IMG/VR virus record: IMGVR_UViG_3300009177_000087
Coordinates: 1-31,909 of that record
Reading direction: 5' to 3' (one strand)
Length of the DNA stretch: 31,909 bases
DNA from: a virus
Shown here: positions 1,491-21,896 of the stretch, one piece after another
How positions within the stretch are numbered: the first letter of the stretch is position 1
Layout: every line of letters starts with the position of its first letter
Translations under genes and position numbers: made by a program
The notes under the pieces: model-generated
Told to the model about the DNA's origin: nothing
What the model saw: only the letters and a program-made list of their open reading frames with translations
Databases searched by the model: none

Positions 1491-1607
1491 GCTGCCCCGT
1501 GCGTACGGTCCGCTGCCCCGAGCGTATGGGTCGTACGGTGCCCGCCACCCACAGGCCCGCCACCCAGCCGCGCCGCTGGCGTATGGCATCCCGTGGCCCG
1601 CGTATGA
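1491..1607 (+). repeat. GCGTAYGG iteron cluster in the divergent promoter region
   Basis: Between the two divergent promoters are near-repeats of GCGTAYG: 1501-1508, 1522-1529, a TCGTACGG at 1531-1538, 1579-1586 and 1600-1607. Two pairs are spaced exactly 21 bases apart. The segment also holds duplicated GCTGCCCCG (1491, 1512) and GCCCGCCACCCA (1540, 1555). No convincing gene occupies 1387-1685. The repeats could be a replication origin or operator sites for an early regulator, given the PrimPol-helicase gene directly downstream. This reading is inference. Confidence 0.55.
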
Positions 1608-1633
1608 ACCATGTTGCGTGTTTGCATTCAATC

Positions 1634-1662
1634 TTGACACCGCCCGCGCGTACTGCTATACT
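1634..1662 (+). promoter_or_regulatory. Extended -10 sigma70 promoter for the PrimPol-helicase gene
   Basis: TTGACA (1634-1639), a 17-base spacer ending in TGC, then TATACT (1657-1662). The predicted transcript begins near 1669, immediately before GAGGGG and the ATG at 1686, giving a very short leader. Confidence 0.85.
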
Positions 1663-1685
1663 GGTGCTATCGTCGAGGGGAAATC

Positions 1686-4226
1686 ATGTTATCAGCTGTC
1701 ACAGGCGGCTTCTCATTCGAGTCCGCCGATGAGAAACTACTCAGAGAACAGCGCTCAATAACATACCAAATTAACAACAACTTTATTCAAGTTGGTGCCG
1801 TTTTCTTAAAACAGAGCGGCAAGACACCGTACGAGAACGATTGGTTCGCGCGAGGGTACCGCGACACAAACCTCCAGAGTTGGATCGATGACCCAGACCA
1901 CCAAATACTCAATGTCGGATTTAACTTACAGTTCGGATGGGTGGATATTGACATTGATTCGAGCAACCCCGCATATAACCAATGCATCGTTGCCGCACTT
2001 AACCATCTTGGGGTCGATACGCGGTTCCAGTTCGGACGGCTTTCGGTGGGGGCTCCTTCTCATTTGCTCGTCCAGCTTGGCGAGTCCGAAGCCTCCAACT
2101 TTAACCAGCTAAAGCAATTCGAACCCAGCGAATTCCGGATCGGGGGCGTGCGCCACAAAGTAGAGCTGCGCTCCCTCGCAACAAGCACGCAACAAGCAAA
2201 CCTAGTCCGTGAAGCCAAACAAACCGTAATGCCGGGATCGATATATGTCAACAAAGTCAAGGCTGACACTTATGACATTTCCGTCTGGTACCAAGGCGGA
2301 TCCGTTGTTGCCCATTCCGTTGGAGATGTGGCGGTTACGACGCCTCGAAGGACCGAGTTTAACACTATTATCCGAGCCATCGCTTTCGGAACAGCCCTGT
2401 ACTTGTTCCAACCACATTGGGTTGAGGGATCTAGACAAGTCACCGCCCAAAAAATAAGCGGGTGGCTCGCACGCGTGGTCGCCGAAAGCAACGGGCTAAA
2501 CAACCACGAGGCGATCGCAGACGACGTATTCTGCCCCGTCGATTCCGACAGCATCGCCGAAAGTCTGATAGAGTTCATCTGCAAATCGCTGGGCGACGAC
2601 GAGCCTTACATGCGGGTTCGCACATACCGCGATGCGTGCGGCAAGCTCGAGCGAAATCCCGACGCGAAGATTCCCGGCTGGCCGACTATGTCCCAGCTTT
2701 TCGGCGACGACGTAGTGAACGCGCTCCGGGCTGTTCTGATGCCCGGTGCCGACGTGTCAATTCTCACCAAGCTCGCCGAAAGGTACATATACGATGAAAC
2801 TGACGATCTCTATATCGATCGAGAGCGATTCCAAGCTTTTGCCCAATATGCGCACTCCGGCGCCGAATTGGATCGAAGGCATAGAGGGGATTTTGTACGA
2901 GTTGGGGGAAAACCCCGACCAGCCTTTAAGCTCTTTGAGATTTCAACTATTAGGAAAAGGGTTAACACACGAGATTTGTACCCCGAACTTGCCCCCGGCG
3001 GCATATTCAGAATTGACCGTATTGGTGAGCAAATTAGCGACGATAGCGAGGACGAGAGGGTTGTTAATACCGCCTTCAACACCTGGAAAGGTTGGTCAAT
3101 CGCCCCCGCAAACCCCATCGACTCGGACTTGATGCAACTGTGTGTAAGCAATCTTGACCAATTGTTATGCTACTTGACCCGAGACAACGAGGCTCAGGCG
3201 TTATGGATAAAGCAATGGTTAGCATGGACCATTCAGCACCCCGGCGTCAAGCAGCAAGTTGCGCCTGTTATCGTGGGGGGTCAAGGTGTCGGCAAATCAT
3301 TCTTCGGCAACACTTTTCTGATGTCCATATTCCAGAGCTTATGGGGCACGGCCTCGCCGAAATTACTGGAAGGAGCCTTTGCCATCGAGCCGTTCATAGG
3401 CAAGATGGTCGTCTTCATAGACGAGGCCAAGTTCCACTCCGAAGCTAGCACCGAAGAAATCAAGAAGCTAATCCGCAACGTCAGTATCGGCGGCGCGGAG
3501 AAGTTCCAATCGGCGCGAAACTACCGCATCTTTTCCCGCGTCATTTTCGCCAGCAACCACATTGATATGAACTTGGGGCAGGCCAACATACAAGACCGTG
3601 CCCTGTTCTACATGAAAGCGTACGATAGAGAACACAAGAGGATGACCGCCGCTGATTTTCGGCGATGGACGGTAACCCTCAAGCCATTCTTCGACAGGTT
3701 CAATGAATTGCTCGCCCGCAAAGACGCGCGGGAACATTACATGCGCTACTTTATGGATTTCGAGACGGATCGGCACGCGATAGAGAACACCGAAAATTCA
3801 GCGGCCACCGACAACGACATCGTCGCGTCGAACATGAGTTACGCAAGGCGCGTGGCGAAGTTCATCATAGAAGACGGCCGCATAATGGAGGACTCCGACA
3901 TATCGATGCCGTTCACCGTGTCGGACCTCAATAAGCGCGTTGGCGAAGTGTGCCGCGACATGGGCATGCTCCCTGTTCAAGGTGCGCGAGTAATGGCCGA
4001 ATTCCGGGAGGCCAGCGTCCTCGAAGCGCACACCGAAAATGGGCGGAACATGCTGCGGTTCAAGTACAAGATCGCCACTCTAACTGAGATGTTTGGCCTC
4101 GCTATTTCGGTGACGATGGAGCCCAAGTTCATATTTACCGACGAGGACAAGGGCGACAATGATACGACGCTTGCCTCACCGAAAGGGTGGCGGGGGCTAA
4201 ACAGGGCTTTATTCCGACGCGTATAG
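1686..4226 (+). CDS. PrimPol-superfamily 3 helicase fusion (replicative primase-helicase)
   Basis: An 846-residue two-domain protein. The N-terminal third has archaeo-eukaryotic primase (PrimPol) features: the acidic metal motif VDIDID (D87, D89, D91), a His in GAPSHLL (H126) and a third acidic position in HKVELR (E160). The C-terminal half is a D5/DUF5906-like helicase: Walker A GGQGVGKS (531-538, K537), Walker B VVFIDEAKF (D579, E580) and a sensor-type Asn in IFASNH. It probably unwinds and primes at the phage origin. Cyanophage S-2L, the classic Z-genome phage, also uses a PrimPol. The ATG at 1686 has GAGGGG upstream and its own promoter. The protein sits alone, followed by another promoter. 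Confidence 0.9.
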   Translation: MLSAVTGGFSFESADEKLLREQRSITYQINNNFIQVGAVFLKQSGKTPYENDWFARGYRDTNLQSWIDDPDHQILNVGFNLQFGWVDIDIDSSNPAYNQCIVAALNHLGVDTRFQFGRLSVGAPSHLLVQLGESEASNFNQLKQFEPSEFRIGGVRHKVELRSLATSTQQANLVREAKQTVMPGSIYVNKVKADTYDISVWYQGGSVVAHSVGDVAVTTPRRTEFNTIIRAIAFGTALYLFQPHWVEGSRQVTAQKISGWLARVVAESNGLNNHEAIADDVFCPVDSDSIAESLIEFICKSLGDDEPYMRVRTYRDACGKLERNPDAKIPGWPTMSQLFGDDVVNALRAVLMPGADVSILTKLAERYIYDETDDLYIDRERFQAFAQYAHSGAELDRRHRGDFVRVGGKPRPAFKLFEISTIRKRVNTRDLYPELAPGGIFRIDRIGEQISDDSEDERVVNTAFNTWKGWSIAPANPIDSDLMQLCVSNLDQLLCYLTRDNEAQALWIKQWLAWTIQHPGVKQQVAPVIVGGQGVGKSFFGNTFLMSIFQSLWGTASPKLLEGAFAIEPFIGKMVVFIDEAKFHSEASTEEIKKLIRNVSIGGAEKFQSARNYRIFSRVIFASNHIDMNLGQANIQDRALFYMKAYDREHKRMTAADFRRWTVTLKPFFDRFNELLARKDAREHYMRYFMDFETDRHAIENTENSAATDNDIVASNMSYARRVAKFIIEDGRIMEDSDISMPFTVSDLNKRVGEVCRDMGMLPVQGARVMAEFREASVLEAHTENGRNMLRFKYKIATLTEMFGLAISVTMEPKFIFTDEDKGDNDTTLASPKGWRGLNRALFRRV

Positions 4227-4234
4227 AAGACAAC

Positions 4235-4264
4235 TTGACAGGGTACGTGGCGACATGCTATGAT
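4235..4264 (+). promoter_or_regulatory. Extended -10 sigma70 promoter
   Basis: TTGACA (4235-4240), an 18-base spacer ending in TGC, and TATGAT (4259-4264). It lies between the helicase stop and the ATG at 4303 and has an AGGAG ribosome site downstream (4291-4295). Confidence 0.8.
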
Positions 4265-4302
4265 GCAGACGTCGCACCTACCAACCCAACAGGAGTTTAG
4301 TG

Positions 4303-4779
4303 ATGGTTAAGAAAGCAACGCAGACCGAGCCCGAGGTTCAGGAGCCCGCACCGGTCACCGAAACCGCCCCGGCCCCGGCCGAGGAGAAGAAGACCAAGTC
4401 GATCGTTCCGGCTCGCTACGCCGGGAAGTACAAGAAAGGCGGCGTCGACTCCCTCGCCGAGTTCATCAACGCGCAGTGCTCCGAGAAGGGCACGTTCGAC
4501 TTTGCCAAGTTCTGGGATCTGTGCAAGAAAAACGGTCTGCCCACCGAAAAGGTGGACCATTACGCCGGGCAGGTCGCCGAAAAGCGGCATGGCGCACAGG
4601 GTCGCGCTCGCATGACCCTTCGCAACATGCTCGCTACCATCGTTCGTAAGGACGGCAAGCTCATCGCCTTGGACGGTTCCGAGGCTACCCTCTCACTGCC
4701 GAAGCCGACACTGAGTGGAGCCGCTGCGGCGGCGAAGCAGGGTGCAGCGACGGGTGAGGCCGTAACTAGCCAGTATTGA
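4303..4779 (+). CDS. Basic phage protein with disordered N-terminus, unknown function
   Basis: A 158-residue protein. The first ~30 residues are Glu/Pro/Ala/Thr-rich and look disordered. The middle (about 35-130) is Lys/Arg-rich and compact-looking, with ARYAGKYKKGG, a helical stretch and MTLRNML. The tail is Ala/Gly-rich. ATG 4303 is seven bases after AGGAG; a GTG at 4300 is too close. It is the only gene between a strong promoter and a terminator, so it is probably made in quantity early. That pattern, plus the basic core, suggests a DNA- or RNA-binding accessory protein, but I recognise no family. Confidence 0.75.
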   Translation: MVKKATQTEPEVQEPAPVTETAPAPAEEKKTKSIVPARYAGKYKKGGVDSLAEFINAQCSEKGTFDFAKFWDLCKKNGLPTEKVDHYAGQVAEKRHGAQGRARMTLRNMLATIVRKDGKLIALDGSEATLSLPKPTLSGAAAAAKQGAATGEAVTSQY

Positions 4780-4810
4780 GCCCCCCTCGGATACTAAGCT
4801 AGGATCGGCA

Positions 4811-4851
4811 GGGGCGTCTCCGTGTAGAATCGGGGACGCCCCAAATTTTTT
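4811..4851 (+). terminator. Rho-independent terminator
   Basis: An 11-base stem (4811-4821 with 4832-4842, one G-T wobble) and a 10-base loop, followed by AAATTTTTT. The ribosome site of the next gene (GGAGG 4852-4856) starts at the end of the T run, so read-through could directly supply that gene. Confidence 0.85.
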
Positions 4852-4861
4852 GGAGGATATG

Positions 4862-5077
4862 ATGCACGCAGAAACGTTTAAGTATCTGAATCCCACCGAT
4901 GAACAGCTTACCAAGATGACCATTATGCGCGGGGTTGCCGCGGAATACGCTAGTTTTGTAGATGCGCACTTGCCCGAGGGGCCAGACAAAACTTACATCC
5001 TTCGGAAGTTCCGGGAAGTTGCGATGTGGGTAAACATAGCCATCACCCGCAACCCGGATGGCTCGCCACGCACATAA
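4862..5077 (+). CDS. Acb2/Vs.4-like cyclic-nucleotide sponge (anti-CBASS candidate)
   Basis: A 71-residue, two-helix-hairpin-like protein. The pattern F-K-Y-x2-P near the N-terminus, a first helix (MTIMRGVAAEYASFV), a P-x-G-x-D-K turn and a second helix (LRKFREVAMWVNIAIT) match what I know of phage Acb2/Vs.4 proteins. Those form hexamers that sequester cyclic di- and trinucleotides made by CBASS and related systems. The start is ATG 4862, six bases after GGAGG (4852-4856); the ATG at 4859 is too close. The gene follows a terminator and precedes a promoter, so it is an independent cassette. Family assignment is from memory of the motif pattern, without a search. Confidence 0.65.
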   Translation: MHAETFKYLNPTDEQLTKMTIMRGVAAEYASFVDAHLPEGPDKTYILRKFREVAMWVNIAITRNPDGSPRT

Positions 5078-5084
5078 GGGGTAC

Positions 5085-5113
5085 TTGACAGGGACGCCGC
5101 CGTGTGATACAAT
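5085..5113 (+). promoter_or_regulatory. Extended -10 sigma70 promoter
   Basis: TTGACA (5085-5090), a 17-base spacer ending in TGA, and TACAAT (5108-5113). Transcription would start near 5120, before the GGGAG ribosome site and the GTG at 5140. Confidence 0.8.
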
Positions 5114-5139
5114 GGCGGTGTCCAGCATGGGAGCGTGAA

Positions 5140-5631
5140 GTGAAGCAAGAAACCTACGATTACGCAATGCGAGTGTGTGGCGGCGTGTTGAAGCTCGTGT
5201 CCATGATACGGCAAGACACCGCCGAAGTGGTGGCGACAAATGACCACGTTGAAGTAATCAAGCACTACGACAAGGTCCGCAAGCTCACCGAGGAGATCAA
5301 GGAGGCTCGCGAAGCCCTCGACGAGATGGAAAAGCAGCTGAGCCGCGAGCAGGTGCCCGAAGTAATGCGGGCGCACAAAATCAAGACAATCACCATCGAA
5401 GGTGTCGGCCGAGTATCCTTGGGGAATCGCTGGTCTTGCACCATGCTCAACAAGGATGCTGGGTTTGAGTACCTCCGCAACAACAACGCTGCGGGGCTTA
5501 TCATCGAGACGGTCAATTCGCAAACACTAGCCGCTTATGCGAAGGACCTGAGCACCACGAAAGGAGTGGAACTGCCAGCGGACATATTCAAAACAGGCAT
5601 CATGACTTACACGAGCATAACGAAGGCATAA
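5140..5631 (+). CDS. Coiled-coil phage protein of unknown function, replication cluster
   Basis: A 163-residue protein. Residues ~40-75 form a strongly charged heptad-like helix (KLTEEIKEAREALDEMEKQL). The second half looks globular, with a beta-rich IEGVGRVSLGNRWSC followed by helices and a VNSQTLAAYAKDL segment. I chose GTG 5140 because GGGAG (5129-5133) precedes it and the open frame upstream runs into the promoter. Similar small proteins occur beside phage recombination and ssDNA-binding genes, but I cannot name a family. It is first in an operon that continues through the 37-aa peptide and the possible SSB. Confidence 0.75.
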   Translation: MKQETYDYAMRVCGGVLKLVSMIRQDTAEVVATNDHVEVIKHYDKVRKLTEEIKEAREALDEMEKQLSREQVPEVMRAHKIKTITIEGVGRVSLGNRWSCTMLNKDAGFEYLRNNNAAGLIIETVNSQTLAAYAKDLSTTKGVELPADIFKTGIMTYTSITKA

Positions 5632-6691: not shown

Positions 6692-7027
6692 ATGAGAAAA
6701 TGGATAGTTGTCACCGTCATGACGTTGAGCACCCCCGCTTTCGGTGCGTCCATGGAATACTGCCGCCCTTATGCGGCTCAGGCCGCCGAAATGCTGATGA
6801 AGTACGTTTGGCTCCGGGCTTACACCAGTTGCCTCAACTATGACGAGGAACCGAAGTTACCAACATCCCAAGCCACCCTGTTCCAGCTGATCCCGCCCCC
6901 TCCCGGTTCCGTGCCCGCGACGGCAGCGCCGAAAGAGGTGCCAGTTGCAGATAACGGAAAGGCGCTTTGCATCAAGCACAACATGCGCACAGTTTACAAG
7001 GGCAGAAGTTGGAGATGCACCAAATGA
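6692..7027 (+). CDS. Small secreted/periplasmic protein
   Basis: A 111-residue protein with a typical Sec signal peptide (MRKWIVVTVMTLSTPAFGA, cleavage predicted after Ala19). The mature part has cysteines at C24, C47, C93 and C109, so disulfides are possible, plus a Pro-rich middle (LIPPPPGSVPA). The ATG at 6692 follows AAGGA. The TGA overlaps the ATG of dpoZ (ATGA). A secreted protein inside a replication operon is unusual. It may act in the periplasm on superinfecting phage or on host envelope functions. Not recognised. Confidence 0.7.
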   Translation: MRKWIVVTVMTLSTPAFGASMEYCRPYAAQAAEMLMKYVWLRAYTSCLNYDEEPKLPTSQATLFQLIPPPPGSVPATAAPKEVPVADNGKALCIKHNMRTVYKGRSWRCTK

Positions 7028-8805
7028 TTGACCCAGAACTAGCGCTCAAGATCGTCCGACAATCGAAGCTGATAGCCTTCGACACCGAAACGACGGGGCT
7101 AACCGTCAAGGACAAGGTCTGCGGATGGGTAATCACCGATGAAGAACATTCCATTTATGTGCCTGTTAGACACGGGGGCGGCGGGAACATCCCCAACGCC
7201 GAGGAATTCGAAAAGGCCCTCTATAGTGCCTTTTATAGTCGCTTTCTTAATAATTTTCCTGCTGTGGGCCACAATATTGGGTTCGATTTACGGGTTGCTG
7301 CTCGCCACGGGGTGGTTATAGCCGGACCAGTAGAGGACACAATGATCAACGAGTCCATAATCAACGACCTCACCGTTGGTTACGGGCTCGAAGAATGTGC
7401 TGCCCGACACGGGGTAACAGCGAAAAAGGGAGCAGAACTATATGCCGCCATCGCAGCCAAGTTCGGTGGGCTCGCCGACCGGAAGCAGATGCAGCACTTT
7501 TCGAAGATGGCTGGAGACGATCCTGTCGTCGTGGATTATGCTACCGGTGACGGGACCACCACCTTACAACTACGGCAGGTTCAGCAGCCCATCATCGATC
7601 GCGACGATTTACGGCGGGTCTGGCGGCTGGAATGCGACCTTATCCCCTACCTCGCGCGAATGCACAGCCGGGGGTTGCGGATCGACGCCGAGTACTCCGA
7701 ACGGATTGCCGTCGACATAAAGGCCGCCATCGAAAAGGCGCAGACACAGTTTCCACTAGGGTTCAACGCCCGGTCGCCGAAAGATGTGGAGGGATTGTAT
7801 CGTGCCAACGGTTATCAGGATGCTGACTTCGCTCTCACCGAACAGAAAGCGGTGTCGTTCCGGGAAAAATGGCTTGAATCTAACGATATTGGCCAGTCTA
7901 TCCTCGCCGTACGAAGACTGGAGAAAGCCCGTGACTCGTTCATTAAACCTCTCGTGGATACACACAATTTCGGCGGGCGCGTTTACCCAATACTCAATCA
8001 GTCAAAGTCGGATGACTATGGTGTTGCCGGAGCAAGGCTGTCCTGTTCGGAGCCGAATCTACAAGCGTTCCCAAAGCGAAACATCGATATTGGCCGAGTG
8101 GTCCGAAGATTAGTAATTCCGGACGAGGGGATGCTGATCGAAGAGGCCGACGCCAAGCAGCAGGAACCCCGCCTGTTTACTCACTACTCCGAAGAACCGG
8201 CCCTCGTCGAGGGATACCGAAACGGCACAATGGATATGCACGACCGGGCCAGCGAAGTGCTGGGGCTTGACCGAGAGGTAGCCAAGCGGCTCGGGATGGG
8301 AATGCTGACGATGATGTCGGTTCCGACGCTGGCGGGTCATATGCGTTGGGACACAGAGCGAGCACGTGAAGCGCACGGCGCGTTCCTCACCGATGCCTTC
8401 CCCAAGATCAAGGAAATGCAGCAGACGGTCATGTCTGTTTTTCGGCGGCGCGGATACATCAAAACCATGCTGGGCCGTCGCGCTTATTGTGATGATCCGA
8501 AGTATGCCTATCGGGGCGTGAGCCGCCTGATTCAGAACAACGGCGGCGACCATATAAAGACGTGCATTCTCCGCGCCAACCAATACGAAGACGCGCACCC
8601 CGACAAGGTGCAGATGTTGCTCTCTATTCACGACTCCATGCTGTGGCAACGAACCCCAGACCACAGCCCCGTCGAACTGATAAAGGTCATCGAAAATGTG
8701 GCCGAAGAGATGAAACTGATAGTTCCCATACCATTTGGGCTCGGAAGCGGGCCTGATTGGGCTCGAGCCAGTTATGGCAGTAAACTAGATAAGTACGAAG
8801 ACTAA
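7024..8805 (+). CDS. dpoZ: Family A DNA polymerase with 3'-5' exonuclease, DpoZ type
   Basis: A 593-residue PolA-family polymerase without a 5' nuclease domain. Exonuclease motifs: FDTET (D20, E22), GHNIGFD (D88) and Y172xxxD176. Polymerase motif A is EADAKQQEPR (D376) in place of the usual DYSQIELR. Motif B is REVAKRLGMG (R417, K421). Motif C is IHDSM (H536, D537, S538) where most PolA enzymes have HDE. Company with PurZ, MazZ and DatZ identifies it as the Z-selective replicative polymerase; known DpoZ enzymes favour aminoadenine over adenine, aided by exonuclease proofreading. The ATG at 7024 overlaps the previous stop, with GGAG nine bases upstream. A promoter follows the stop. Confidence 0.85.
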   Translation: MIDPELALKIVRQSKLIAFDTETTGLTVKDKVCGWVITDEEHSIYVPVRHGGGGNIPNAEEFEKALYSAFYSRFLNNFPAVGHNIGFDLRVAARHGVVIAGPVEDTMINESIINDLTVGYGLEECAARHGVTAKKGAELYAAIAAKFGGLADRKQMQHFSKMAGDDPVVVDYATGDGTTTLQLRQVQQPIIDRDDLRRVWRLECDLIPYLARMHSRGLRIDAEYSERIAVDIKAAIEKAQTQFPLGFNARSPKDVEGLYRANGYQDADFALTEQKAVSFREKWLESNDIGQSILAVRRLEKARDSFIKPLVDTHNFGGRVYPILNQSKSDDYGVAGARLSCSEPNLQAFPKRNIDIGRVVRRLVIPDEGMLIEEADAKQQEPRLFTHYSEEPALVEGYRNGTMDMHDRASEVLGLDREVAKRLGMGMLTMMSVPTLAGHMRWDTERAREAHGAFLTDAFPKIKEMQQTVMSVFRRRGYIKTMLGRRAYCDDPKYAYRGVSRLIQNNGGDHIKTCILRANQYEDAHPDKVQMLLSIHDSMLWQRTPDHSPVELIKVIENVAEEMKLIVPIPFGLGSGPDWARASYGSKLDKYED

Positions 8806-8806
8806 C

Positions 8807-8835
8807 TTGACACGGAGGCACGGGTGTGATATGAT
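8807..8835 (+). promoter_or_regulatory. Extended -10 sigma70 promoter overlapping the mazZ start
   Basis: TTGACA (8807-8812), a 17-base spacer ending in TGA, and TATGAT (8830-8835). The -10 hexamer contains the ATG at 8831-8833. Transcripts from here would begin near 8842, inside the gene as annotated. Confidence 0.8.
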
Positions 8836-9142
8836 CGACATACTCAAGATGCACGCGGAAATGACAAAGGGATTGTTTGCGCCGTTCTCATCCGCCGATG
8901 AGCGCTACCTTTCGCTGTGTCTGTGCGGTGAAGCAGGCGAACTCGCCAATTTCATCAAAAAGCGCTGGCGCGAGGGCAATGACATGTTATACGCGGAGGA
9001 GATTAAGGACGAAATCGCCGATGTTCGAGTGTATCTCGAACTGATCGCCGCATGCTTTGGTATTGAAGGCAAAAAGCTGGACGAACGGGTCCAGAGCAAA
9101 CTGGCCAAAGTGGTGGAGAGGCGCAAAAATGCCGTATCGTGA
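8831..9142 (+). CDS. mazZ: MazG-like nucleotide pyrophosphohydrolase, MazZ
   Basis: A 103-residue all-alpha NTP pyrophosphohydrolase. The metal-binding motifs of the MazG superfamily are visible: ExxE in GEAGEL and ExxD in KDEIADV. In Z-genome phages MazZ converts (d)GTP to (d)GMP, the substrate of PurZ, and that role is inferred from the neighbouring purZ, datZ and dpoZ. The start is uncertain: ATG 8831 has a distant CGGAGG and lies in the -10 of its promoter. ATG 8849 or ATG 8861 would be needed for mRNAs made from that promoter. It overlaps the next gene by 14 bases. Confidence 0.8.
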   Translation: MIDILKMHAEMTKGLFAPFSSADERYLSLCLCGEAGELANFIKKRWREGNDMLYAEEIKDEIADVRVYLELIAACFGIEGKKLDERVQSKLAKVVERRKNAVS

Positions 9143-9338
9143 GGGCGACGAAACTGTATCATTCGAGGGAAGGATCGAGGTTTCCACAGCGAAAGCACAC
9201 CTCGTATTCCCCACAATGGGACCGGAACAGGTGTGGGTCCCGAAAAGCCAGCTCGTTAAGATGTCGGAACCAGACGCCGACGGGCTGCGCGTATTTACAG
9301 TAACAGACTGGTGGGCCAAGAAACAAAAGGACCTGTGA
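9129..9338 (+). CDS. Small hypothetical protein, beta-rich
   Basis: A 69-residue protein with alternating polar/hydrophobic residues suggesting a small beta barrel (VSFEGRIEVSTAKAHLVF, LRVFTVTDWWAKK). ATG 9129 lies within the end of mazZ, with GGAGAG upstream. Its TGA overlaps the ATG of the nuclease gene (TGATG). Not recognised; coupling suggests co-expression with dZTP synthesis and the nuclease. Confidence 0.65.
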   Translation: MPYREGDETVSFEGRIEVSTAKAHLVFPTMGPEQVWVPKSQLVKMSEPDADGLRVFTVTDWWAKKQKDL

Positions 9339-9724
9339 TGTTAGAATCCGAATTCAAGGATCACATAATCAGGGATATTCGCAAGGAAGGAGGATACGCT
9401 CGCCGAATAGAGGACAGATTTTCGGTGGGCCAGCCGGACATGTTCCTCATACCGAAGCTGTGCCCCGCGATGTGGATCGAGGCGAAGATTATCAAGGGCA
9501 ACCTGCTTATTCCACGCCCGCGCCAGTTCATCGAACTGCAGCGGCTCTACCGCCCACCACATTGTATCACTTTCATGATTGGTTGTAAAGCAGATCGAAT
9601 GTATATCGCACCACCCGACATGAAAGTGCAGTTGTTGTCTTGCTTAGAATCCACACCCGGCGAAAGGGTGGGCGATTTCATACGACGGGCAATCAAGGAG
9701 GAAGAAGGCATTGAGCGATCCTAA
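9338..9724 (+). CDS. VRR-NUC-like PD-(D/E)xK nuclease
   Basis: A 128-residue protein with the nuclease signature GQPD (D34) followed by WIEAK (E48, K50), plus an N-terminal conserved-looking Glu (ESEFKDHI) and a helix with RPRQFIELQRL. This is the layout of VRR-NUC / Holliday-junction-resolvase-like phage nucleases. It probably processes recombination or replication branches, working with the SNF2 helicase downstream. ATG 9338 has AAAGGA upstream and overlaps the previous stop. A restriction-type role is less likely given the size and context. Confidence 0.75.
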   Translation: MLESEFKDHIIRDIRKEGGYARRIEDRFSVGQPDMFLIPKLCPAMWIEAKIIKGNLLIPRPRQFIELQRLYRPPHCITFMIGCKADRMYIAPPDMKVQLLSCLESTPGERVGDFIRRAIKEEEGIERS

Positions 9725-10040
9725 GACAGCAAGGCAAGTGTTGGAGCAAGCCATCAACGCAATCGAGGAGGGAACCAAGAAACACGGCGACACCGCTAAG
9801 TCGTTCACCATGATCGCCGAACTGTGGAACATATACCTAAAGCACAGATGGGACAACAAAGTATGGGCGATTCATCCCCACGACGTGGCGGTTATGATGT
9901 CGCTGCTCAAAATCGCACGAGCCGCCCACAGTTATAGCTTCGACAACTATGTCGACGAGGCGGGTTACACCGCACTTGCCGCCATGCTTCACCCAACAAC
10001 AACAGCACCACATCCGGGCAAAACCAATGAATCTGTTTGA
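9711..10040 (+). CDS. DUF6378 family protein
   Basis: A 109-residue protein matching the pattern I know for DUF6378: an N-terminal A-x2-VLEQAI helix, KHGDTAKSFTMIAELWNIYL, then HDVAVMMSLLKIARA and a terminal VDEAGYTALAAML. The family is common in phage nucleotide-metabolism and replication regions, with no established biochemical activity that I can cite. The start is TTG at 9711 with a strong AAGGAGG just upstream, and it overlaps the nuclease gene. It ends inside the first codons of purZ, so it is translated together with it. Confidence 0.75.
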   Translation: MSDPKTARQVLEQAINAIEEGTKKHGDTAKSFTMIAELWNIYLKHRWDNKVWAIHPHDVAVMMSLLKIARAAHSYSFDNYVDEAGYTALAAMLHPTTTAPHPGKTNESV

Positions 10041-11061
10041 AAAAACCGGCGTCCACGTCCTCGTCGATGGACAATTCGGCTCCACGGGGAAGGGAGCGCT
10101 TGCCTCATTCCTAGCACGCGAGGCCGTCGAAAGCGGGGCCATAAAGGACTTCCAAGGGGTAATCACCAGCGCGGGGCCTAACAGTGGCCACACTAGCTAT
10201 TGGGGGCACGGCAAGATCATACTCAAGCAGCTGCCCACTTTCGCTGTCCAGGCCCATCTTATGGGTTACACGATCCCGGTGTTCCTGTCGGCCGGGGCGG
10301 TGATTAACCGGGACCAACTGTTCTTCGAAGCCAACACGTATCCCAGCATTCCGATACACGTTCATCCGAACGCAGCGGTGATCACCAAGGAAGCGATGCA
10401 GGAGGAGTTGAAGGGCAGCATCCGGGATATCGCCTCAACGCAGAGCGGAACCGGTGCGGCGCTCGCCCACAAGATATATCGCGAACCAGAGGCCATCGCT
10501 AAGAATAGCCTTGGCCCCACGCCGAAAAACGTGGTGATATCACATGTTCGCCCCAAACCGGACAGTAACGCCTATTTCATGGAAGTGTCGCAGGGGTTCT
10601 CGCTCGGCATCAACTCCGAGTTCTATCCCCATGTAACCAGCCGCGAGTGCACGGTTATGCAAGGCATCGCCGACGCCCGCATTCCGCCGCGACACGTGGC
10701 GAAGACCTACATGTGTGTTCGGACATACCCCATACGGGTCGGGAACCTAGGGACGTACTCCAGCGGCGATTGGTACGAAGACCAGACCGAAACATCATGG
10801 GACGAACTCGGGATCGATCCGGAACTCACCACGGTTACGCAGCGGGTTCGCCGGGTGGCCACCTTTTCGATGAGGCAATACATCGACGCCGTCTACGCGA
10901 ACGATCCGGATTGGGTGGCGGTCAACTTTATGAACTACCTGAACGACGCCAATCAGGCTGAACTTATGGACAACTTGATGGAAGCGCGGGCGCTAGTTTC
11001 TAAAGACCACGGCTTCATCGCCGGGTTCGGCCCCCACGCATCGCAGTGGAGGATATTGTGA
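10027..11061 (+). CDS. purZ: PurZ, 2-aminoadenylosuccinate (dSMP) synthase
   Basis: A 344-residue homologue of adenylosuccinate synthetase, shorter than PurA (about 430). The nucleotide loop reads DGQFGSTGKG (14-23). The PurA catalytic Asp (in WGDEGKG) is replaced by Ser19. The His of the NAGH motif is kept (NSGH, H55). PurZ condenses dGMP with aspartate, using ATP or dATP, to make the precursor of 2-aminoadenine deoxynucleotide. The Asp-to-Ser change fits a dGMP rather than IMP substrate. ATG 10027 is inside the end of the DUF6378 gene, with only a weak ribosome site; a longer in-frame start at 9949 is rejected because it adds a non-conserved tail. It overlaps datZ by four bases (GTGA). Confidence 0.9.
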   Translation: MNLFEKTGVHVLVDGQFGSTGKGALASFLAREAVESGAIKDFQGVITSAGPNSGHTSYWGHGKIILKQLPTFAVQAHLMGYTIPVFLSAGAVINRDQLFFEANTYPSIPIHVHPNAAVITKEAMQEELKGSIRDIASTQSGTGAALAHKIYREPEAIAKNSLGPTPKNVVISHVRPKPDSNAYFMEVSQGFSLGINSEFYPHVTSRECTVMQGIADARIPPRHVAKTYMCVRTYPIRVGNLGTYSSGDWYEDQTETSWDELGIDPELTTVTQRVRRVATFSMRQYIDAVYANDPDWVAVNFMNYLNDANQAELMDNLMEARALVSKDHGFIAGFGPHASQWRIL

Positions 11062-11606
11062 ACCCAATCTTCAGCGAACTAGACATGCGCCTTTCGGTGG
11101 TTCCCCGTTGGGTGGTGGTCCCGACGATCCAGAAGCAGAGCGTGGCGGAGCACTGCTTCAACGTGGAACGGATCGCCCGCCAGATTGCGCAGCAGTGGTT
11201 CAATATTCGCGACACCGACCGGCTGGACCGAATCTCCCAGCTGGCGCTCCATCACGACGATGACGAAGCCATAACGGGAGACATTCCCTCCCCCGCCAAA
11301 ACGATCCTCAGCGAAAAGTACCTTGACAACCGCGCCCGCCTGTGGTACAATGCCCACGGATCGCTGGGGCTCATCGTGAAGCTGGCCGACTTAATGGAGA
11401 TGTACCGATTCTTGGTTATGGAAACCATGCTTGGAAACCAGTATATCGACGAGTATTTGACAGAGCTTCTAAACAAGGTAAGGAACGTCTACCCCGACCA
11501 ATACAAGCGGTGGTTACAGTGGTCCGACGAGATATGCGCAATGAGGGGAACTACAATTGACCCAACTTTTGGAAGTACAAAAAGCGGCACTGAAAGCAGC
11601 GTATGA
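11058..11606 (+). CDS. datZ: DatZ, HD-domain dATP triphosphohydrolase
   Basis: A 182-residue HD-domain protein: H32 (SVAEHCFN), HD dyad H66-D67 in LALHHDDDE, and D111 in KLADLME. It resembles YfbR-type HD phosphohydrolases and has the length of known DatZ. In Z-phages DatZ removes dATP, so adenine is not offered to the polymerase. Immediately downstream of purZ with a GTG start (11058) and GGAGG at 11048-11052; the next gene starts 50 bases before its stop. A promoter (11323-11351) is embedded in it. Confidence 0.85.
   Translation: MNPIFSELDMRLSVVPRWVVVPTIQKQSVAEHCFNVERIARQIAQQWFNIRDTDRLDRISQLALHHDDDEAITGDIPSPAKTILSEKYLDNRARLWYNAHGSLGLIVKLADLMEMYRFLVMETMLGNQYIDEYLTELLNKVRNVYPDQYKRWLQWSDEICAMRGTTIDPTFGSTKSGTESSV
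11323..11351 (+). promoter_or_regulatory. Extended -10 promoter inside datZ
   Basis: TTGACA (11323-11328), a 17-base spacer ending in TGG, and TACAAT (11346-11351). The same architecture as the intergenic promoters, but within coding sequence; it would give the SNF2 helicase gene (11557) its own transcript. Confidence 0.65.
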
Positions 11607-18096: not shown

Positions 18097-18820
18097 CGGG
18101 GCCTCCGCTATCTAATGTAACACCCTGGTACCGTTTTCGGCGAGTCGCCATGAGAGCCGCCATCATTTGCGCCGCTGCCGACGCGCTCGGTATATTGGCG
18201 TCGACGCTGGAAGGTGTGAGCTGGTTCGCCGAAGGATCAGACTTAGACCGTGAACCGAGCGAAGCAGCGAAAGTACCGAGCCCCGCGAGGATGTCCGCGA
18301 GCTTGGAATTACCCGGAGCGGCTGCTGTGGTTCCCGGCCTAGTGGGGGGCAGCGGAACACCTGAGGCGTCTGGTGCTGATATTCCCGCACCGGGTCCATC
18401 AGCCGGAATTGGAAAAGCGGCCGCGCCCGTTCCACCATATCTTGCGGAATTTAGTGAGATACCTAGCGGCTTGGTCGCATCACTAAATCCGGCGTCTAAA
18501 GGAATCCTAACTCTCGCCGCGCCATGGAACGGTGCCCAACTTCGTTGGCGAGCAGCGGAGTCCAAAGCAAACTCAATGCCTGCCCTCCAGTCTTTTCGGG
18601 GGTCATAGTTGGACTTCAGCATCTCCTTGCCGAGCCCGCCCTCCACATTCAGCTGGAAAGCGCCATAAGATGGCTCGTAAGTGCCGTCTTTCCGTTTAAT
18701 GTTACTCCGCTGGAACGGGTCTGTAACCCCGCCCTCCGACATCGCTACTTGAACAGCGATGTCCGGATCGATGCCGCGAGCAGCTGCCGCCTTGCGGATG
18801 AAGTCTTCGATGTAGTTCAT
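18086..18820 (-). CDS. Virion-associated lysozyme-like transglycosylase
   Basis: A 244-residue protein. The first ~130 residues have a lytic-transglycosylase/lysozyme pattern: a helix with the probable catalytic Glu29 (VAMSEGG) and SYGAFQLN (51-58), as in SLT folds. A long Pro/Gly/Ala linker follows. The end ALMATRRKRYQG parallels the tail of the downstream M15-like protein. It likely cleaves the glycan backbone during genome delivery. ATG 18820 overlaps the stop of the ART-like gene (ATGA). The ribosome site is weak, so coupled translation is likely. Confidence 0.7.
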   Translation of the reverse strand: MNYIEDFIRKAAAARGIDPDIAVQVAMSEGGVTDPFQRSNIKRKDGTYEPSYGAFQLNVEGGLGKEMLKSNYDPRKDWRAGIEFALDSAARQRSWAPFHGAARVRIPLDAGFSDATKPLGISLNSARYGGTGAAAFPIPADGPGAGISAPDASGVPLPPTRPGTTAAAPGNSKLADILAGLGTFAASLGSRSKSDPSANQLTPSSVDANIPSASAAAQMMAALMATRRKRYQGVTLDSGGPGGV

Positions 18821-19800
18821 TTTTTTCTCATTAATTTTATGGTGTTCTTAGCCTGCTCTATCTTTGCCTTGTAGTATTCCGGCGGGAAATCCATAAACAT
18901 TCCCCCCTTCAAAATACGTTGATAGTTTTCCAGTTTCTTTTGCATTCGTTCAACGGACGGATGATATATCTCCTGCATGAACGCATCATCTGTTAATTTC
19001 TCGGTACCGACCGGCCCCAATTGGGTAGGCACATTTTCGGCGTTCGGTGAAACATAGTCCTTATTGCTAAGTACCCCGCGCAACTTACCCGCTTCTTGCG
19101 CAACTTCTGAGAACTTAGGAACAGCGCGAGAGGGATCCATTAACATTACCGCGTGATCGTACGGATCTTCTGAATATGGATTCCAGTGCGGGTATTTAAC
19201 TGAGTCATATCCAAAATCCTTAAAAGCATCTAGGGTTGGCTTCCCCTCTTTAAGACGGTTATAGATGTCCAACAAATCCGGATTATCAAAGGAAGAAAAG
19301 TACTCCAAGGTGTCCGCAACATGTACGGGATCGTTCCATTTTAATGGGTCTGCCGGGAAATCCAACTGCCTGCCCGGATCAGCGTACATCGGATAAGTAC
19401 GGGGACCGGCCAGCGTCATCCCTTTTGGCAATTTACCACGATCCTGCGCTAGAAGTAAATTTATGTCAGGGGTGTCATAGTTCATGCTGTAATAATCGGC
19501 TATATTGGGTGACGAGGTTAAATGTAGTCCTTCGTCGTACAAACTACCACCGGGCCGATCGTAGTTTACCCTCCTGTTGGTTCCATGGTACAACTCTTCC
19601 AACGGCGGCCCCGGCTTTGAAAAATCGGGATGTACACTTTCAGGAGCCACCGGCTTTGCGAGTACGCCCTTAACCGGCGACCTTCCAATAAGCTTAGCGC
19701 CACTTCCAGCAAGCGTCTTGCCTTCGGCCTTGAGCAGCCCGGTCCCAAGCTTCTCGTCCAGCGTACCAAGAATGCCCTTTATGAGCTTCTGACTAGCCAC
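18817..19800 (-). CDS. ART-like protein, third tandem paralogue
   Basis: A 327-residue protein. Residues 1-50 form a leader shared with two upstream paralogues (LIKGILG, LDEKLGTG, AGSGAKLIGRSP). The core then has YHGTNRR (H72), GLHLTSSPNIADYYS (91-105), PRTYPMYADPG and, near 220, FGYDSVKYPHWN...AVMLMDPSRAVPKF. This order resembles phage ADP-ribosyltransferase domains: YHGT, G-h-h-T plus Tyr, a PMY strand, then GYD and a MDPS strand at the position of the third catalytic residue. If active, it would transfer ADP-ribose from NAD to a host target. The start is GTG 19800 in a GTGGCTAG context shared by all three. The region is visibly richer in A+T. Confidence 0.6.
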   Translation of the reverse strand: MASQKLIKGILGTLDEKLGTGLLKAEGKTLAGSGAKLIGRSPVKGVLAKPVAPESVHPDFSKPGPPLEELYHGTNRRVNYDRPGGSLYDEGLHLTSSPNIADYYSMNYDTPDINLLLAQDRGKLPKGMTLAGPRTYPMYADPGRQLDFPADPLKWNDPVHVADTLEYFSSFDNPDLLDIYNRLKEGKPTLDAFKDFGYDSVKYPHWNPYSEDPYDHAVMLMDPSRAVPKFSEVAQEAGKLRGVLSNKDYVSPNAENVPTQLGPVGTEKLTDDAFMQEIYHPSVERMQKKLENYQRILKGGMFMDFPPEYYKAKIEQAKNTIKLMRKK

Positions 19801-19803
19801 TTG

Positions 19804-20976
19804 TTACTCTTCCGTTAGCTTTTTGAGTAGAGCTTTATACGCTTTCGTTTGGCCAAGAGCCTTATCGTTTATGTCCTGATCAACATGGAAATCTCCCGTC
19901 GCCCACGCTTGATCCGCCTTGTCTTTCAGTATTTTTTCTGCCTGAATACTTTCAGGAGTAGCCATCGCCGCGTGCTTATCCTTTAATTTTTGAATATTTT
20001 TTGCTAAGGCGGCCTTTTTGTTCGGCGGAAGCTGGCCATACTTGTACTCTAACTCCATGTGGTCAATTTCATTCATAAGTTTTCGCTGGGTCGGGTTCCA
20101 TAGCTCGTATAAAAATTCCTCGGGCGGCAACGCATGAACGCCCTCTGGTCCCAACACATCCGCAATATCCTGAGCGGTTATGTCGGGATACGCAATTTTT
20201 TCCGGGGCCAACACCCCTCTTACTTTTGCAGCTTGTTGACCGACTTCTGAATACTTTGGTACGGCTCGCGACGGGTCCAACAACATTAAAGCCTGTCCCG
20301 AATCCGTGTTGTCTATCGGGTTGTAATGTGGATACCCCACCGAATGGTAACCCAAATCCGTTAAGGTTGTGCCCACAGGCTTTCCGCCACGCATATCTTG
20401 TATTATTTTTTCATAGATGGGATCGTTAAGATAATTCCCCCAATCGGTTTTCGACCAATACCGCCTCTGTTCATCAATGGAATCCGCCACTTGCTCCGGG
20501 TCTACCCATTTTCCGGCGTCCGCCGGGAAATGAATCTTATTCCCAGGATCGGCATACATAGGATAAACACGCGGCCCCGCCAAGCTAAACTTTGGTACCT
20601 TATCAGTGGCCGCCGCTTTCAGCAAGTTTAAATCTGGCGTATCGTAGTTCAATGCATAAAAATCAGACACCATCGGGGTGCTCGTTAAGTGCAGCCCAAA
20701 ATCATCATAAAATCCAGCGCCGGGTCGGTCAAAATTTGCCCGTCTGTTCGTGCCGTGATACACTTCTTCCAACGGTGGTCCCGGCTTCAAGAAATCTGGG
20801 TGCACACTTTCAGGCAACGGCTCTGCAGGCTTCGCAAGAATGCCACGAACGGGGGACCTTCCAACAAGCTTCGCCCCACTTCCAGCAAGCGATCGGCCCT
20901 CGGCTTTAAACAAGCCGGTACCGAGCTTCTCGTCGAGTGCCCCGAGTATACCCTTAATGAGCTTAGTGCTAGCCAC
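19804..20976 (-). CDS. ART-like protein, second tandem paralogue
   Basis: A 390-residue paralogue, the longest of the three. It shares the N-terminal leader (LDEKLGTGLFKAEGRSL) and ART-like core: YHGTNRR (H74), FGLHLTSTPMVSDFYA (Y107), PRVYPMYADPG, then LGYHSVGYPHYN and ALMLLDPSRAVPKYSEVG. It has an extra C-terminal helical region of about 110 residues (LWNPTQRKLMNEID, NKKAALAKNIQKLKDKH). Start GTG 20976 overlaps the upstream TAG by one base, with AAGGG nearby. It is closer to the third paralogue than to the first. Function inferred as ADP-ribosyltransferase only from the motif order. Confidence 0.6.
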   Translation of the reverse strand: MASTKLIKGILGALDEKLGTGLFKAEGRSLAGSGAKLVGRSPVRGILAKPAEPLPESVHPDFLKPGPPLEEVYHGTNRRANFDRPGAGFYDDFGLHLTSTPMVSDFYALNYDTPDLNLLKAAATDKVPKFSLAGPRVYPMYADPGNKIHFPADAGKWVDPEQVADSIDEQRRYWSKTDWGNYLNDPIYEKIIQDMRGGKPVGTTLTDLGYHSVGYPHYNPIDNTDSGQALMLLDPSRAVPKYSEVGQQAAKVRGVLAPEKIAYPDITAQDIADVLGPEGVHALPPEEFLYELWNPTQRKLMNEIDHMELEYKYGQLPPNKKAALAKNIQKLKDKHAAMATPESIQAEKILKDKADQAWATGDFHVDQDINDKALGQTKAYKALLKKLTEE

Positions 20977-21896
20977 TATTTGCCCTTTTGTCTTTCTTCG
21001 AATATAAGATCGGCAATACGGTCGGCAAATCCTCCCCTCGCCGCTTCCTCCGACGACGGTTCTTGTAATGCGTACTTGATTAGCGTATCCATGTCCATAT
21101 CTGGGTAGCCAGCAAGTAGCTGGTGCATCATCGCTTTATCGTCCAAAGGCGGCCGATCCGTATCTAACCCCAACACCCCCCTAGCTTTCTTTGCTTGTTG
21201 TCCAATATCCGAAAATTCCGGAACGGCGCGACGGCGATCAAATAACATCAGCCCCTTACCTGTCGCCGGGGCATATCGAGGACGATCCCGATAAGGAGTG
21301 TCGTGTCCATACAACATAGAGTCATAGCCCGCATCACGGAGAGTTTTAACAACCGGCTTATCAAAAGCCAATTGTTGTAAAATGTAATCTATTTCGCGGG
21401 GCACTTCCATGTCTTGATAGTCTTCGTAAGCACGCATCGCTACTCGATAGGGATCATCCCAAGGACCATAATCTCGTTCAAACCCCGTAAAAGGCTTGCC
21501 CGGATCGACTAGCATTGGATAAACCCGAGGCCCCGCCGGTCCCTTTACCCTCTGAATGGGTTTGTCCAAATACGGATGAAGCGCGTAAACATCTGCAATA
21601 CCCGGTGAACCCGTTAAATGTAGCCCCTCATCCGCTAAATTGCCTTTCGGCCTATCAAAGGGGTATTTTCTATTAGATCCGTGAAGCATACGCCACAACG
21701 GGTCGCCAGTTTCTTTCAACAAATCCGGGTGCACAGTGTTAGGATTCAGTGGCTTCGCAAGAACTCCAGGGGGTGTTCTGCCAACAAGCTTCGCGCCGCT
21801 GGTCGCAAGCGATCGGCCCTCGGCCCCAAATATCTTTGTGCCCAGATTGTCTTCGAGGGCATTGAGTATGCCCTTGACGAGTCTCGTGCTAGCCAC
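20976..21896 (-). CDS. ART-like protein, first tandem paralogue
   Basis: A 306-residue paralogue, the most divergent. It keeps the leader (VKGILNALEDNLGTK, AEGRSLATSGAKLVGR) and the ART-like elements: LHGSNRK (H72), GLHLTGSPGIADVYAL (Y104), PRVYPMLVDPG, DAGYDSMLYGHD and KGLMLFDRRRAVPEFSDIG. The DPSR of the other copies has become DRRR, so one site residue may differ. The C-terminus is short and acidic. Its GTG start at 21896 is inside the last codons of the upstream gene, with no clear ribosome site, so expression is probably coupled. Confidence 0.6.
   Translation of the reverse strand: MASTRLVKGILNALEDNLGTKIFGAEGRSLATSGAKLVGRTPPGVLAKPLNPNTVHPDLLKETGDPLWRMLHGSNRKYPFDRPKGNLADEGLHLTGSPGIADVYALHPYLDKPIQRVKGPAGPRVYPMLVDPGKPFTGFERDYGPWDDPYRVAMRAYEDYQDMEVPREIDYILQQLAFDKPVVKTLRDAGYDSMLYGHDTPYRDRPRYAPATGKGLMLFDRRRAVPEFSDIGQQAKKARGVLGLDTDRPPLDDKAMMHQLLAGYPDMDMDTLIKYALQEPSSEEAARGGFADRIADLIFEERQKGK

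Follow-up and report, generated by a model that had tools for sequence, protein, structure and literature searches.

We study a small gene carried by the Z-type genome of a soil phage; its analysed portion, the whole stretch of 31,909 nucleotides, we refer to as the window. The features of the locus, together with the codons discussed further below, are collected in Table 1. The gene encodes a protein of 71 amino acids (MHAETFKYLNPTDEQLTKMTIMRGVAAEYASFVDAHLPEGPDKTYILRKFREVAMWVNIAITRNPDGSPRT). Its reading frame is present and intact as the first-pass annotation had described it, and the three motifs quoted there, FxYxxP, PxGxDK and LRKFREVAM-NxAI, are all found in the protein (as F6-K-Y8-L-N-P11, P38-E-G-P-D-K43 and L47-RKFREVAM-W-V-N58-I-A-I61). 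An in-frame ATG at 4859 is a possible alternative start; the start of the relatives falls in the column of codon 4862, where nearly all of them have ATG, GTG or TTG.

Table 1. Positions in the window of the hairpin gene, its flanking elements and the codons of the ligand-site residues
Feature	Position	Strand	Remarks
acb2/tad1-hairpin gene, predicted sponge for nucleotide immune signals, 71 aa	4862-5077	+	uninterrupted frame
Ribosome-binding site GGAGG	4852-4856	+	sequence reading; 5 nt ahead of ATG 4862
Upstream neighbour, ORF of function unknown, 158-159 aa	4303-4779	+	syntenic in L104 and vB_OspP_OH
Downstream neighbour, Pam3 gp33-like (PF23984)	5140-5631	+	homologous to the Gam-like inhibitor of host nuclease in vB_OspP_OH
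Promoter of the following gene, sigma-70-like, TTGACA-17-TACAAT	5085-5113	+	11/12 matches; 8 nt past the stop codon
Promoter ahead of the 159-aa ORF, sigma-70-like, TTGACA-18-TATGAT	4235-4264	+	11/12 matches
Intrinsic terminator stem-loop, 12 pairs, then T-tract	4811-4842	+	closes the upstream unit just before the hairpin gene
Codon of Y8 (T4 Acb2 Y8; PaP2-type Acb2 Y11)	4883-4885	+	alignment A3
Codon of R23 (column of Acb2 K26 in PaP2 numbering; T4 K23)	4928-4930	+	alignment A3
Codon of R48 (Thr in Acb2: T4 T68, PaP2 T74)	5003-5005	+	subfamily-specific

A single-gene cassette between terminator and promoter

The elements on either side of the hairpin gene recur in related phages: L104, the sister phage, retains the terminator stem together with the promoter of the next gene, and at the corresponding site the Ochrobactrum phage vB_OspP_OH has a stem comparable to it. 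Sigma-70-like sites number three in the region against 0.6 expected. The two listed in Table 1 are closely similar (they begin TTGACAGGG and have an extended -10), which suggests that they form a phage promoter family. The hairpin gene lies between the terminator and the promoter behind it. Because we find no dedicated promoter for it, the gene probably relies on read-through of that terminator, with transcription starting from the promoter at 4235-4264.

Comparison with the two relatives shows what is special about the window at this site. The sister contig (IMG/VR, 19,176 bp), whose PurZ is 95% identical to that of the window, aligns end to end with window positions 1574-4856 (90% identity) and 5076-5607 (84% identity), so that only the hairpin gene and the region of its ribosome-binding site are missing from it; a search of this contig with the Pfam model PF24729, introduced below, gives no match. 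Phage vB_OspP_OH has the gene order in common with the window (primase-polymerase, 153-aa ORF, Gam-like inhibitor, gp34-like, DNA polymerase, PurZ, DatZ-like, helicase), and at the corresponding site it has the terminator-like stem with a promoter-like TTGACT close behind and no sponge gene. The term cassette, used in the first-pass annotation, is thus apt, for a single gene here and a site that is found without it in both relatives. The hairpin gene is an accessory cassette at a terminator-promoter gap that was either gained here or lost by the relatives, and since two lineages are without it, gain is the simpler reading.

Membership of the Acb2/Tad1 hairpin family

Searched against Pfam with hmmscan, an HMM check that the first-pass annotation had proposed, the 71-aa protein matches PF24729 (Acb2/Tad1 hairpin domain) with 28.5 bits (E = 1.8e-6), which is 1.5 bits above the curated cut-off of 27 bits. 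The same model is matched at E 0.01 by 49 of 51 non-redundant relatives (best 1.5e-12), the other two giving no match at that threshold. As positive controls, T4 Vs.4 scores 71 bits and a PaP2-type Acb2 66 bits, and the search of 14 control genomes returns no match. The Pfam E-value, the 250 relatives confirmed by tblastn in IMG/VR and the 13 invariant columns in the alignment of the subfamily place the ORF beyond chance. This alignment holds 51 non-redundant sequences; of the 250 relatives, 80 were retrieved. Elsewhere, the protein matches phrog_1454 (1.8e-10), a group of unknown function; PADLOC and NCBIfam have no family for it, and phmmer against the PDB gives nothing meaningful.

Profiles carry the comparison further. 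Those built from the subfamily only (A1, A2) have a designed helical bundle as their sole match in the PDB, and a profile of the subfamily together with short members from cultured phages, built without any classical Acb2, reaches Acb2 homolog 43 (9PTQ) at 1.2e-6, clearly the best match in the PDB; a solved member of PF24729 is found there only when such intermediates are added. Matches of a third profile, A3, to 8h2j, 8ixz and 7uq2 are circular and were left uncounted because A3 contains classical Acb2, so that only 9ptq is independent. In hhalign the subfamily matches the short PF24729 phage proteins with 98.8% probability (E 5.6e-17). Compared directly, profile to profile, the subfamily and classical Acb2 give 7%, which is not significant, and after addition of the intermediates 76% (E 2.2e-5).

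The predicted structure agrees with the term hairpin given to the protein in the first-pass annotation. In the AlphaFold2 model, computed from the 51-row alignment (pLDDT 92.7, pTM 0.72), a short N-terminal helix (helical turn 7-9) precedes two long antiparallel helices, 13-36 and 41-62 (compare PMC12043709). Strands of three or more residues are absent, and the entire protein is a hairpin. An identity as Tad1 was rejected on these grounds, as the protein has the hairpin only and no beta domain. Foldseek against the PDB ranks 9ptq (Acb2 homolog 43 with 3'cADPR) and 7uq2 (T4 Vs.4 with cGAMP) at the top, with weak E-values to solved Acb2 (0.39 and worse), and against predicted viral structures its top named matches are Acb2/Tad1 hairpin proteins. 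The VIA Z scores of the model are 6.9 for 7uq2, 6.5 for 9ptq and 6.2 for 8h2j, where values below 8 are not decisive for a helical hairpin; unrelated hairpins also reach about 6, and therefore the fold by itself does not settle membership. Membership of the 71-aa protein in the Acb2/Tad1 hairpin sponge superfamily is well supported. The family is already known, and this protein is an additional member of it.

An altered predicted ligand site

We now consider the residues that would line the binding pocket. Y11 and K26 of the PaP2-type Acb2 are, we take it, ligand contacts. Their counterparts here are Y8, which is Tyr in 49 of the 51 relatives, and R23, which is Arg in all 51, where the classical Acb2 set (A4) has an invariant Lys; the change from Lys to Arg is conservative. 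In T4 Acb2 the mutant Y8A is binding-deficient (PMC12657230). Position 48 is different in kind: it is Arg in 51 of 51 relatives and invariantly Thr in A4, and outside the subfamily the T68 column has Thr in all aligned PF24729 proteins save that of Gordonia phage ScarletRaider (Asn). The T68M change in T4 Acb2 is described as lowering affinity (PMC12657230). A tail D66-G67-[STA]-P69-R70 is nearly invariant among the 51 relatives. Read from these columns, the pocket appears to be of the Acb2 kind, yet altered, and because the invariant R48 replaces Thr we file the protein in the sponge superfamily and not as an orthologue of Acb2/Vs.4. The Acb2/Vs.4 pattern of the first-pass annotation stands in part. 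The superfamily is right (PF24729, fold, Y8, a basic residue at 23), whereas PxGxDK and LRKFREVAM-NxAI are marks of the protein's own soil-phage subfamily; T4 Vs.4 (GYKPHTEEK...TIAKTKLKEASMWACRAV) has in common with it only Y8, the basic residue 23, the pattern of the helices and the M/W positions.

Among characterised proteins, T4 Vs.4/Acb2 (7UQ2, cGAMP) resembles the 71-aa protein in Pfam domain, fold, Y8, the basic residue 15 positions later and the M-W of helix 2, but it is 88 aa long, some 20 additional residues separating its helices, has Thr68 for R48, and its identity is low (19%, A3). The PaP2/PaMx33-type Acb2 (p26; 8H2J, 8IXZ) shares the Pfam domain and the fold, with Y11/K26 matching Y8/R23, but is longer (93-94 aa), has Thr74 for R48 and is not significantly related in the direct profile comparison. 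Acb2 proper is a homo-hexamer with separate pockets for dinucleotides and trinucleotides and inhibits CBASS. Tad1 (7UAV, 8KBB-8KBH) has the hairpin domain of PF24729 at its C-terminus, and its N-terminal beta domain is missing from the 71-aa protein. Closest is Acb2 homolog 43 (9PTQ, 3'cADPR), a short PF24729-type hairpin of similar length and the best match by both profile and fold; it differs in having Thr for Y8, Lys for R23 and Thr for R48, and the DG[STA]P tail is absent from its aligned part.

This likeness bears on which signal the protein would bind. 3'cADPR is the signal of Thoeris, and the main ligand could be an ADP-ribose-type signal of this sort (3'cADPR or a relative) in place of a cyclic di- or trinucleotide of CBASS. 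The rank of homolog 43 as the closest solved short homologue speaks for such a ligand, as do the LPEG-x-[DE]K turn that the two proteins have in common between their helices and the presence of R48 where cGAMP-binding Acb2 has Thr. However, homolog 43 itself has Thr at the Acb2 Tyr site (F-D-T-H against F-K-Y-L) and Thr, not Arg, at position 48, so that in its pocket the 71-aa protein shows no special likeness to it. We regard an ADP-ribose-type main ligand as possible, if somewhat unlikely.

Distribution, selection and the Z genome

Among the viral contigs of IMG/VR, relatives of the gene are common, whereas they are rare in bacteria: a search of 84,980 species genomes of bacteria and archaea yields only 2 contigs. 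The subfamily is nearly restricted to phages. Sorted by the neighbour genes they share, 82 of its loci form 19 groups with no neighbour gene in common between them; some adjoin terminase genes, some recombination genes, some other genes. Among the loci of the relatives, the neighbour genes of the window recur only at a contig that matches it at 100%. At one locus (L031, G010:C1:8293-8466) a second PF24729 match, weaker at 24 bits, is located some 1.7 kb away from the first, so that this phage may have two sponges. Four others (L036, L047, L051, L065) have a common C-terminal extension with a YPxxHPAxGDLGxxP-like motif.

These neighbourhoods raise the question of whether the hairpin protein might serve a housekeeping role of the phage, for example in packaging or recombination, and have the fold alone in common with the sponges. 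Many relatives adjoin the small or large terminase subunit or sit in recombination modules, conservation is high (the 13 invariant columns), and a helical hairpin gives comparable Z scores with many folds unrelated to it. Against this, two syntenic relatives have every neighbour but not the gene itself, its 19 neighbourhood groups are unrelated, and the protein matches by sequence a model that finds nothing in the control genomes. Because of the syntenic relatives without the gene and the unrelated neighbourhoods, we reject a terminase or recombination partner as the best reading and consider a housekeeping role quite improbable.

For the gene of the window compared with its relatives, pN is 0.20-0.28 and pS 0.58-0.96, and the median dN/dS among pairs with dS 0.1-1.5 is 0.31, an upper guide because dS is near saturation. 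Purifying selection on the gene is strong over the roughly 80 loci compared, and for a protein engaged in an arms race the conservation of the subfamily is unusually high. Such selection argues against a sponge that has decayed or been repurposed and has lost nucleotide binding, as do the retention of Y8 and R23 and the fact that R48 is invariant, not drifting. A decayed sponge would account for the PF24729 score near the cut-off and for the presence of R48 at a site where the Thr of the T4 protein is reported to influence affinity (PMC12657230); on balance we find it very improbable.

The first-pass annotation had also proposed that the sponge and the Z genome give the phage layered protection. 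A Z module is indeed present in the window (7024-11606), with DNA polymerase A, a MazG-like gene (8828-9142), PurZ (phrog_1211 match 2.7e-52, GSTGKG motif) and a DatZ-like gene, in an order largely as in vB_OspP_OH. But PurZ is found in none of the 49 other carriers of the sponge gene, many of which are fragments, so that a linked system of sponge and Z genome finds no support, and L104, itself a Z phage, is without the sponge gene. From the other side, a PF24729 protein is present in 1 of 12 annotated Z-phage records tested, that of cyanophage S-2L, the classic Z phage, where an unannotated 71-aa ORF (MW334946.1 ~35199-35414; L119:1400-1615; 69.1 bits) lies between S2L_47 and S2L_48, its PF24729 match at 35235-35405 falling largely in a gap without an annotated gene. 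Sponge and Z genome co-occur in the window, and nothing indicates a joint system. Apart from both, the window has at 18817-21896 on the minus strand a tandem triplication, three adjacent paralogous ORFs of 327, 390 and 306 aa that begin MAS..L[IV]KGIL..L; a Pfam scan of the first of them gives no match.

Predicted function and its implications

We think it likely that the gene encodes a small sponge of the Acb2/Tad1-hairpin type, borne as an accessory cassette. Counting against this reading are the narrow margin over the Pfam cut-off, the two relatives without a PF24729 match, the low direct profile score with classical Acb2, the modest fold scores, the Arg at position 48, the high conservation of the subfamily, and the position of the gene behind a strong terminator with no promoter of its own. 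For the 71-aa protein itself, we infer the hexamer, the binding, the identity of the ligand and the anti-defence effect. The predicted hexamer would bind a cyclic-nucleotide or cyclic-ADP-ribose alarm signal and would not cleave it; the signal so sequestered would be the product of a CBASS- or Thoeris-like system of the host, and with the signal held by the sponge the effector would stay off and the infected cell would not kill itself. In the pocket, Y8 and R23 would touch the bound signal in the manner of their Acb2 counterparts, and the invariant R48, R51 and R63 with the DG[STA]P tail would make up the rest of a subfamily-specific site. That it would act on CBASS in particular is plausible. 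It is conceivable, and in our judgement unlikely, that the subfamily of about 250 soil-phage loci marked by R48 and the tail sponges a nucleotide immune signal bound by none of the characterised Acb2, Tad1 and homolog 43 proteins.

Such sponges have a published cost, in that T4 Acb2 triggers the Panoptes defence (PMC12657218, PMC12657230), and the patchy presence of the hairpin gene would fit a cost of this kind. The sister phage that lacks just this one gene would show the gain or loss of a sponge caught in the act. For the family, the fixed Arg and the tail predict a ligand preference distinct to this subfamily, and for the phage, the gene would place a counter-defence sponge on a Z genome.
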